Source of the DNA: Candidatus Aenigmatarchaeota archaeon
Lineage (GTDB): Archaea; Aenigmatarchaeota; Aenigmatarchaeia; QMZP01; JAFGSV01
Length of the DNA: 41,267 bases
Direction: 5' to 3'
Assembly: GCA_021163005.1 (NCBI GenBank)
Contig: JAGGXP010000016.1
Span: forward strand, 1-41,267
Part shown: one piece after another, positions 14,876-32,554 of the stretch
Layout: each line of letters starts with the position of its first letter
Numbering within the stretch: the stretch's first letter is position 1
Notes under the pieces: model-generated
Database searches by the model: none
What the model saw: the letters and a program-made list of their open reading frames with translations, nothing else
What the model was told of the DNA's origin: nothing
Translations under genes and position numbers: made by a program

Positions 14876-15400
14876 CTATAAATAGAGTTTTGTTGGATGG
14901 AAGTTTCGTATTTCAAGAAATAACTGTCTGCCCACGGACGTCTGGCGGGCTATGCCGAAAAGCGTCCCTTCTTTGTGTGGTATGCTCTTCGGGCTGACCG
15001 CTGTTATGCTGCCAGTTGAATCCGCGAACCTGTGCCAGTGCTCGCCGTTCCTGCTGCTGTTGACCCATTCGAGCGAGCCCTCGACGATTACATGCTGTCC
15101 TGACCACCTTTCAGGTCTTCTGAGAATATCGGAAATTGTTGCAACAGGCAGCGTTGTCTTCCCCCTAATGGGCTGTTGCTCCTCTCTTTCCCCGACAGCT
15201 GGCGCATTGCGCAGAAGAGAGCCGTGCCTCGAGAACCGGATATAGTCTATGTACTTGTTGAGTATCTCTATGTCTTCCTGAAGCGGATGCAGCGGCCTGC
15301 GCTGCCTCCTCTCAAGATATCTGCTCATCTCGAGCCTGCCATCTAATCCTTTCTCCACTTCAGCTATCCTTCTTCCTGCCCTGACGAGCTTGAATACCAT
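14876..15400 (-). CDS. OB-fold-like protein downstream of tRNA-Arg
   Basis: This 174-residue protein has a basic helical N-terminus (residues 1 to about 75), a linker, and a C-terminal OB-like domain (ISDILRRPERWSGQHVIVEG ... GSITAVSPKSIPHKEGT). OB domains of this type bind single-stranded nucleic acid, but I do not recognise the family. The frame stays open to an ATG at 15433, which would place the first codons inside the tRNA-Arg acceptor and T arm; the start is therefore set at ATG 15400 (TTG 15409 is the other option). It begins about 10 nt after the tRNA end with no TATA box of its own, so it is probably co-transcribed with the tRNA. Confidence 0.72.
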   Translation of the reverse strand: MVFKLVRAGRRIAEVEKGLDGRLEMSRYLERRQRRPLHPLQEDIEILNKYIDYIRFSRHGSLLRNAPAVGEREEQQPIRGKTTLPVATISDILRRPERWSGQHVIVEGSLEWVNSSRNGEHWHRFADSTGSITAVSPKSIPHKEGTLFGIARQTSVGRQLFLEIRNFHPTKLYL

Positions 15401-15423
15401 AGCTATCAATGCCCCCGGGGGGA

Positions 15424-15502
15424 TACTCAGCATCTTTTCATTTTTGCGTTAGCGTACTTTCCGGTGCGCGCTTTTCCATGTATGCTTATGGAAAAGGGTG
15501 CC
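15424..15502 (-). other. tRNA-Arg intron 2 (79 nt, T-loop 59/60)
   Basis: The junction has central helix TTCA/TGAG (one T-G pair), 5' bulge AAG (cut AA^G), 3' bulge TAT (cut TA^T), outer helix the T stem, and inner helix GCA/TGC. Removing it restores T loop TTCAAAT. Inside is a 9-bp hairpin CTTTTCCAT/ATGGAAAAG followed by a block (15475-15458) identical over 18 nt to the D-loop intron of tRNA-Gln at 32451-32434. The 5' end is also shared over 13 nt. Confidence 0.88.
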
Positions 15503-15524
15503 TTTGAACCCTCGATCTTCGGCT

Positions 15525-15575
15525 GTCTTCTCTCATAGTTCGCCACAGGCAAACTCGAATCTTCTAGTGCGAGAC
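15525..15575 (-). other. tRNA-Arg intron 1 (51 nt, canonical 37/38 site)
   Basis: The bulge-helix-bulge junction is textbook. The central 4-bp helix is CTTC/GAAG, the 5' bulge TAG (cut TA^G) and the 3' bulge ACA (cut AC^A). The outer helix is GGC/GCC of the anticodon stem and the inner helix is TCTC/GAGA. Inside the intron, GTTTGCC and GGCGAAC form a 7-bp hairpin. An alternative 8-bp hairpin, CTTCTAGT/ACTAGAAG at 15581-15561, would instead hide the anticodon and the 5' cut site. Confidence 0.9.
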
Positions 15576-15637
15576 TAGAAGGCCGACGCCTTATCCAAAC
15601 TAGGCTACGGGGGCCTGTTGTTGATTAATAAGCTTCT

Positions 15638-15648
15638 AAAATTTATAT
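15638..15648. promoter_or_regulatory. Shared TATA-like box of tRNA-Arg (-) and leuS (+)
   Basis: AAAATTTATAT is centred 29 nt from the tRNA-Arg 5' end and 31 nt from the leuS ATG at 15674. It reads as a TATA box on both strands, and no other box of similar quality lies in the 59-nt gap at a suitable distance. The distance also supports leuS starting at 15674 rather than at the upstream in-frame ATG 15647, which lies inside the box. Confidence 0.55.
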
Positions 15649-32234: not shown

Positions 32235-32247
32235 AGCCCTGGGCGGA

Positions 32248-32321
32248 TTTTCTGAACCAATGTTCGCGGGAGCTTACTTTCCGTGAAGGCTTTGGCACGC
32301 TTGCCTGTGCCAAAGGGTTCA
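32248..32321 (-). other. tRNA-Gln intron 3 (74 nt, T-loop 59/60)
   Basis: Outer helix is the T stem GGCGG/CCGCC and central helix TTCG/AGAA (three pairs plus G-A). Both bulges are AAT (cut AA^T) and the inner helix is GAACC/GGTTC. A TTTGGCAC/GTGCCAAA hairpin follows, then CACGGAAAGTAAGCT, which aligns with CACCGGAAAGTACGCT of tRNA-Arg intron 2 at the same site. Confidence 0.88.
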
Positions 32322-32342
32322 TTCGAACCGCCGCCGCCGGTT

Positions 32343-32389
32343 TTCTTCGCTGTCATCGCCCGAAGGCATCAACTCTTCGGAGCAGCGCT
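32343..32389 (-). other. tRNA-Gln intron 2 (47 nt, canonical 37/38 site)
   Basis: Central helix CTTT/GAAG (one T-G), 5' bulge GGA (cut GG^A), 3' bulge AAA (cut AA^A), outer helix the anticodon stem CCGGT/ACCGG, and a short inner GC/GC. The intron body has a GCC-TTCG-GGC hairpin. It does not share the sequence block of the D-loop and T-loop introns. Confidence 0.85.
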
Positions 32390-32412
32390 CCAAAGACCGG
32401 CATCCTTGGCCA

Positions 32413-32516
32413 TTTTCCCGCCCCTTTCTGTTTTTTCCGGTGCGCGCTTTTGCCCCGGTTTCCGCCTGAGCGGAGACAAGGGAACTTGTTCCCGCCACTC
32501 GGTCAGAAAAGGGTGC
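32413..32516 (-). other. tRNA-Gln intron 1 (104 nt, D-loop)
   Basis: The junction has outer helix GTC/GGC, central helix GTCT/GGAA (one G-A mismatch, one T-G), 5' bulge AGG (cut AG^G) and 3' bulge AAT (cut AA^T). The inner helix CACCCTTTTCTG/CAGAAAGGGGCG pairs 11 of 12 positions. The intron contains a GGGAAC/GTTCCC hairpin. Its 5' end (13 nt) and block 32451-32434 (18 nt) are identical to parts of tRNA-Arg intron 2, which sits in a T loop. Confidence 0.85.
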
Positions 32517-32554
32517 CTAGACGACAGGGCTGTTGATAAATAGAATGCATCCGG

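Follow-up and report, generated by a model that had tools for sequence, protein, structure and literature searches.

The window, the whole stretch of 41,267 nucleotides analysed here, comes from an Aenigmatarchaeota genome and holds, at 15614-15410 on its minus strand, a single tRNA-Arg(UCU) gene of 205 nt that is divided into three exons by two introns of 51 and 79 nt. The explanation as a whole is very probable: the tRNA is spliced from a two-intron precursor, and the second of its introns derives from a family that has spread among tRNA genes. At the level of sequence, the argument draws on the anatomy of the gene, uninterrupted sites in congeners, covariation, the closer likeness of intron pairs within a genome, and the type of splicing endonuclease.

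Throughout, G000 is the genome carrying the window (945 kb, about 91% complete), G001 (1.9 Mb), G002 and G003 are its congeners, and other G-numbers are further genomes searched. L-numbers denote loci taken from the searched genomes and R1 is the covariance model of the intron family. The best of the named protein relatives are MAGs (CP070804.1, JAFGFG010000009.1, JAFGSV010000022.1 and JANQNF010000012.1). Coordinates of the features are collected in Table 1.

Table 1. Features of the window discussed in the text
Feature	Position	Strand	Remarks
TATA-like box	15640-15645	minus	about 30 nt upstream of tRNA-Arg(UCU); read by eye
tRNA-Arg(UCU) exon 1, positions 1-37	15614-15576	minus	39 nt; ARAGORN on spliced product
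Intron 1, 37/38	15575-15525	minus	51 nt; BHB; similar architecture in relatives
Exon 2, positions 38-59	15524-15503	minus	22 nt
Intron 2, 59/60	15502-15424	minus	79 nt; BHB; dispersed-family copy
R1 family-model match	15442-15499	minus	80.9 bits, highest in all genomes searched
Exon 3, positions 60-73	15423-15410	minus	14 nt, discriminator A included
OB-domain protein	14876-15400	minus	174 aa; start 15400, 9 nt past tRNA discriminator base
tRNA-Gln(UUG), three introns (D loop, 37/38, 59/60)	32235-32531	minus	second multi-intron tRNA in window
tRNA-Gln(UUG) D-loop intron	~32516-32413	minus	ends approximate
tRNA-Gln(UUG) anticodon intron	~32389-32343	minus	
tRNA-Gln(UUG) 59/60 intron	32248-32321	minus	74 nt; R1 match, 57 bits

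Anatomy of the tRNA-Arg(UCU) gene

The original prediction described a tRNA-Arg(UCU) with one intron at 37/38 and one in the T loop, and both introns, with their lengths, are borne out. Neither ARAGORN nor Rfam detects a tRNA in the unprocessed window, and ARAGORN also misses it in the 205-nt gene, whether intact or freed of intron 1 alone; it calls tRNA-Arg(tct) once both introns are removed, or when intron 2 is removed and the intron option is switched on. By this program, precise excision of both introns restores a tRNA. The proposed junctions (15576/15524 and 15503/15423) proved exact. An enumeration of BHB motifs combined with ARAGORN, given the region without the junctions, ranked exactly these two introns top, and both BHBs are canonical.

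The spliced product is 75 nt long and has perfect acceptor, D and anticodon stems, with one mismatch in the T stem (A50-C64). The genes of G001 and G002 have the same mismatch, which is therefore not an artefact of a misplaced junction. Each junction of both introns shows a 4-bp central helix with 3-nt bulges on opposite strands. Intron 1 combines the central helix CUUC/GAAG with the bulges UA^G and AC^A and the intron helix UCUC/GAGA. Intron 2 reads UUCA-(AA^G)-GCA / UGC-UGAG-(UA^U), in which UUCA/UGAG is the central helix and AA^G and UA^U are the bulges. Its BHB is modest: the intron helix has just 3 bp, and one pair is U-G. Neither BHB forms when the complete precursor is folded to its minimum energy.

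A group I intron or a member of another Rfam family was rejected, the window being without any Rfam match at gathering score; so was a split or permuted tRNA, the three exons lying in normal order inside 205 nt. Judged by sequence, the organisation of the gene as three exons with two BHB introns is confirmed, and the gene is presumably transcribed and spliced in the cell. The TATA-like stretch upstream of it has counterparts in G002 and G003 (by eye). A query made of exon 1, intron 1 and exon 2 gave one full match only in G000, and this locus is the sole such gene found in that genome. A narrow pattern for an intronless tRNA-Arg(UCU) had 0 matches in 61 genomes. Three window ORFs contain 94 Arg codons, and 73 of them are AGA or AGG, which points to a need for this tRNA.

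The same gene in related genomes

In G001, the tRNA-Arg(UCU) gene stands before the same protein gene, contains intron 1, and has an uninterrupted T loop. Its positions 38-73 equal the predicted exons 2 and 3 of G000 at 36/36 nt, in agreement with the T-loop intron as originally placed. The T loop of G003 is likewise uninterrupted. Exon identity to the G000 gene is 75/75 in G002, 74/75 in G001 and 71/75 in G003. The presence of intron 2 at one and the same site thus differs among close relatives, with family introns at 59/60 in G000 and G002, whereas G001 and G003 have none. G004 and G010 also carry introns at 59/60 of this tRNA, and these are unrelated to the family. A tree of the five species G000-G004 gave no resolved branching order and does not polarise the gain or loss of intron 2.

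The downstream gene

The original prediction held that an automatic ORF start at 15433 was wrong, and this is correct. The position lies inside intron 2, and the MVFK start at 15400 is invariant in 5/5 aligned orthologues, so a protein-coding reading from 15433 was rejected. Pfam returned 0 families for the downstream protein; thus its OB label, also part of the original prediction, rests on the predicted fold. The C-terminal part of the model (block pLDDT mostly >80; whole-model mean 60.9) matches OB domains of aspartyl-tRNA synthetases, with a best E of 1.8e-5. Processing of the tRNA at 15410/15409 could be the origin of the 5' end of the OB mRNA, and the spacing is compatible with this in G000, where the gap between tRNA and OB gene is 9 nt, and in G003, where it is 13 nt. 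In G001, however, the gap amounts to 66 nt and includes a TATA-like stretch. The adjacency is not conserved, as the two genes are not neighbours in G002 and G004. A literature search on co-processing of tRNA and mRNA found nothing useful.

Intron 1 and an alternative fold

Intron 1 can adopt an alternative fold, a hairpin between anticodon loop and intron together with a kink-turn-like stem, that excludes the BHB. Arg and Gln tRNAs from other genera share its layout, which begins with a stretch able to pair with the anticodon loop and continues with UUCGA, a hairpin, NNN and lastly UGAGA; G010 and G009 deviate from it. The element UUCGA...NNN-UGAGA resembles a kink-turn. Among 12 folded sequences, the minimum-energy fold includes the anticodon-loop hairpin in 10 and is BHB-like in 2. 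Those from G002, G003, G009, G010 and G019 were found via BLAST; others came from a pattern that itself contains UUCGA, so that in these the motif is not independent. Intron 1 may switch between two forms, one bound by protein and the other competent for splicing. An H/ACA reading of the intron was rejected by eye, since no more than 3 bp lie beneath the kink-turn-like motif.

Intron 2 belongs to a dispersed and structured family

A BLAST search with intron 2 (E<=1) gave 19 matches in G000, 10 in G002, 4 in G003 and 1 in G001. From 20 typed-out, aligned copies I built the covariance model R1. In helix 1 of the hairpin (9 pairs), 6/9 pairs are altered on both sides and 95% of cells are paired, and none of 500 shuffles reached the structure's covariation score; since the 20 rows were picked by resemblance, this covariation supports the hairpin but says nothing of how large the family is. 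With a threshold of E<=1, R1 matches 55 times in G000, 22 in G002, 20 in G003, 3 times weakly in G001 and once in G004, with any match at all in 38 of 61 genomes; at E<=1e-5 its distribution across the phylum is patchy, with matches in 30 of 156 genomes. A short core pattern occurs 13 times in G000, 6 in G002, once in G003 and 0 times in G001, with 0 matches in those four for the same pattern read backwards. Beyond those four, in the set of 61 genomes, the pattern gave single matches and the control two single ones.

To place the introns within tRNAs, I relied on a dedicated 59/60 finder, because a general scanner combining BHB motifs with ARAGORN mis-parsed several tRNAs, with spurious third introns near position 72, and was set aside. 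The finder, which requires a T stem, an acceptor stem and the central BHB helix, returned 61 distinct tRNAs in 1,089,766 bases (both strands) and 0 in reversed sequences, so the 59/60 introns are not chance, but the loci were selected for tRNA or family resemblance and the 61 tRNAs therefore give no genome-wide rate. A looser version gave 74 matches against 1 in the control, of which at least 3 look false (G003 114805, G000 C11 32071, and G038); G000 accounts for 21, or 20 once one doubtful match is dropped. As I read them, R1 matches lie inside 10 of these 20 G000 introns, and the remainder are short or from other families. One such different family, starting GGCTCAAGGGGGC and 176-220 nt long, sits at 59/60 of three G000 tRNAs (L030, L023, L084).

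Copies of the R1 family are mostly at tRNA position 59/60. They also occur at D-loop positions, in tRNAs of differing body sequence, and several lie outside recognisable tRNAs. G000 and G002 each carry an antisense copy at the 5' terminus of their archaeal RNase P RNA gene (L087 920-976 and L093 955-1012). At L078 (~952-1190), repeats of the 3' end of a tRNA-Ser flank family copies, an arrangement resembling a target duplication. At L004 (~1333-1608), a tRNA 5' fragment with a family-like element stands in two tandem copies directly before an intact tRNA, and similar units are present in L022 and L100. The two-intron tRNA, its junctions and the corrected ORF start of the original prediction stand; the membership of intron 2 in this family lay beyond what that prediction could see.

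The splicing endonuclease

An EndA protein of 398 aa in G000 matches 4fz2, the epsilon2 enzyme of ARMAN-2, almost end to end (E 1.4e-87), and the loop residues equivalent to Y160/K161 of 4fz2 are kept. G000 is thus predicted to encode an epsilon2-type, broad-specificity splicing endonuclease; passages in PMC12397907 and PMC6379350 tie both the Y160/K161 loop and the epsilon2 enzyme type to broad intron specificity. G000 also has a second EndA-like protein of 185 aa, alpha4-like, in which the Tyr and His are kept. It has Ala at the catalytic-Lys position. The gene for this protein (185-188 aa) lies at L198 1234-1800, occurs also in G011, and adjoins tRNA genes in G000.

Copying between tRNA genes

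The first 66 nt of 19 introns were compared. Intron 2 is identical to the 59/60 intron of the G000 tRNA-Asp at 61/64 positions, and to the same-site tRNA-Arg(UCU) intron of G002 at 48/59. The 59/60 intron of the G002 tRNA-Arg(UCU) is in turn identical to an intron of the G002 tRNA-Ser at 64/66. Pairs within a genome are thus closer than pairs at the same site, which indicates that introns were moved or converted between tRNA genes genome by genome. Gene conversion would account for these similarities as well as transposition would, and the introns may have been copied through reverse splicing, through transposition as DNA, or by tRNA genes recombining with one another.

I propose that an old anticodon intron (37/38) and a BHB copy of the dispersed family (59/60) came to split the tRNA-Arg(UCU) gene. 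Its precursor would be transcribed from the upstream TATA promoter, the epsilon2-type endonuclease would cut both BHB motifs, and the exons would then be ligated. As splicing would restore the tRNA exactly, insertion of an intron would spare the gene, and the family would consequently have passed from one tRNA gene to the next inside each genome, chiefly at 59/60, where the conserved T-arm sequence would supply half of the BHB. More tentatively, and with less confidence than I have in the scheme itself, the T-loop intron may be a small mobile element that survives via splicing. It would insert wherever the T arm can complete a BHB and multiply inside a genome, perhaps also crossing from one genome to another, and some copies would come to lie next to tRNAs, accompanied by a short repeated piece of the tRNA end (L004, L078).

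What other histories could produce the same pattern? The 59/60 intron might be ancestral and lost in G001 and G003, its likeness within genomes stemming from gene conversion and not from insertion. Such a history is compatible with the tree, and G002 and G004 are also interrupted here in the same tRNA; however, the introns of G004 and G010 at the site are unrelated, and the family also occurs at D-loop positions, beyond tRNAs, and within tRNAs whose bodies differ in sequence, so I consider it rather unlikely. It is more doubtful still that the family consists chiefly of structured repeats, regulatory or DNA hairpin elements for which use as an intron is secondary. Such repeats would suit the copies outside tRNAs, namely those antisense beside the RNase P RNA in G000 and G002 and those that follow the 3' end of a tRNA-Ser or 5' fragments of tRNAs, but many strong, placeable copies lie inside tRNA genes and have BHB ends.

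There is finally the question of whether the locus is a working gene. A degenerate pseudogene, or a chimera created in assembly, with the working copy in the missing part of the genome, would fit the incompleteness of G000 and the single T-stem mismatch. Yet the exons are identical throughout to those of G002 and at all but one position to those of G001, whose uninterrupted gene has the same mismatch, both junctions are canonical BHBs, and the pattern recurs in about 20 G000 tRNAs, which makes this reading highly improbable. A spliced tRNA-Arg(UCU) that took its second intron from a spreading family thus remains the best account, and, since congeners offer both filled and empty sites and 59/60 is a hot spot, insertion becomes traceable.

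Consequences for tRNA detection

Matches to RF00005 (E<=0.001) number 7 in G000, 8 in G002, 9 in G019, 10 in G010, 15 in G011, 21 in G004, 30 in G003 and 70 in G001, the richest genome, which is nearly without the intron family. This trend fits a heavy intron load that hides tRNA genes, in genomes that vary in size and completeness. Standard tRNA searches would miss most tRNAs in such intron-laden genomes, and 'missing' tRNAs reported for them may be intron artefacts. G001 also contains, on contig C74 (~144597-148045), a dense array of tRNA-like sequences, with at least 29 matches in about 3.5 kb, that is perhaps part of an element.

Comparison with known systems

Archaeal BHB tRNA introns at 59/60 are already listed in PMC4090602, and, going by the entries there, those of tRNA-Arg(UCU) resemble them in position, junction geometry and the co-occurring 37/38 intron; nothing basic differs in this gene, and it is membership in the family that sets intron 2 apart. 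The 398-aa EndA is likewise a homologue of the ARMAN-2 epsilon2 endonuclease (4fz2), but G000 has the alpha4-like paralogue in addition. Among titles and abstract openings on tRNA introns of Aenigmarchaeota/Aenigmatarchaeota, DPANN and Micrarchaeota, and on kink-turns with tRNA introns, no report of the family was found. The review PMC4090602 calls the mechanism by which archaeal tRNA introns spread unknown.

The closest precedent is the transposition of tRNA introns in Thermoproteales, described in 2010 from similar introns in different tRNAs (PMC4033280, PMC4090602, as summarised there). Closely similar introns in different tRNA genes are just what G000 contains. As far as those accounts go, the two systems have in common that similar introns recur across a genome's tRNAs, at the canonical position as well as elsewhere, with up to three per tRNA. 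Unlike the Thermoproteales introns as portrayed in the same sources, the Aenigmatarchaeota family is a covarying hairpin centred on 59/60, with copies outside tRNAs. Aenigmatarchaeota would thus be a second lineage of archaea whose tRNA introns include a defined and structured family, and one with a hot spot at 59/60.
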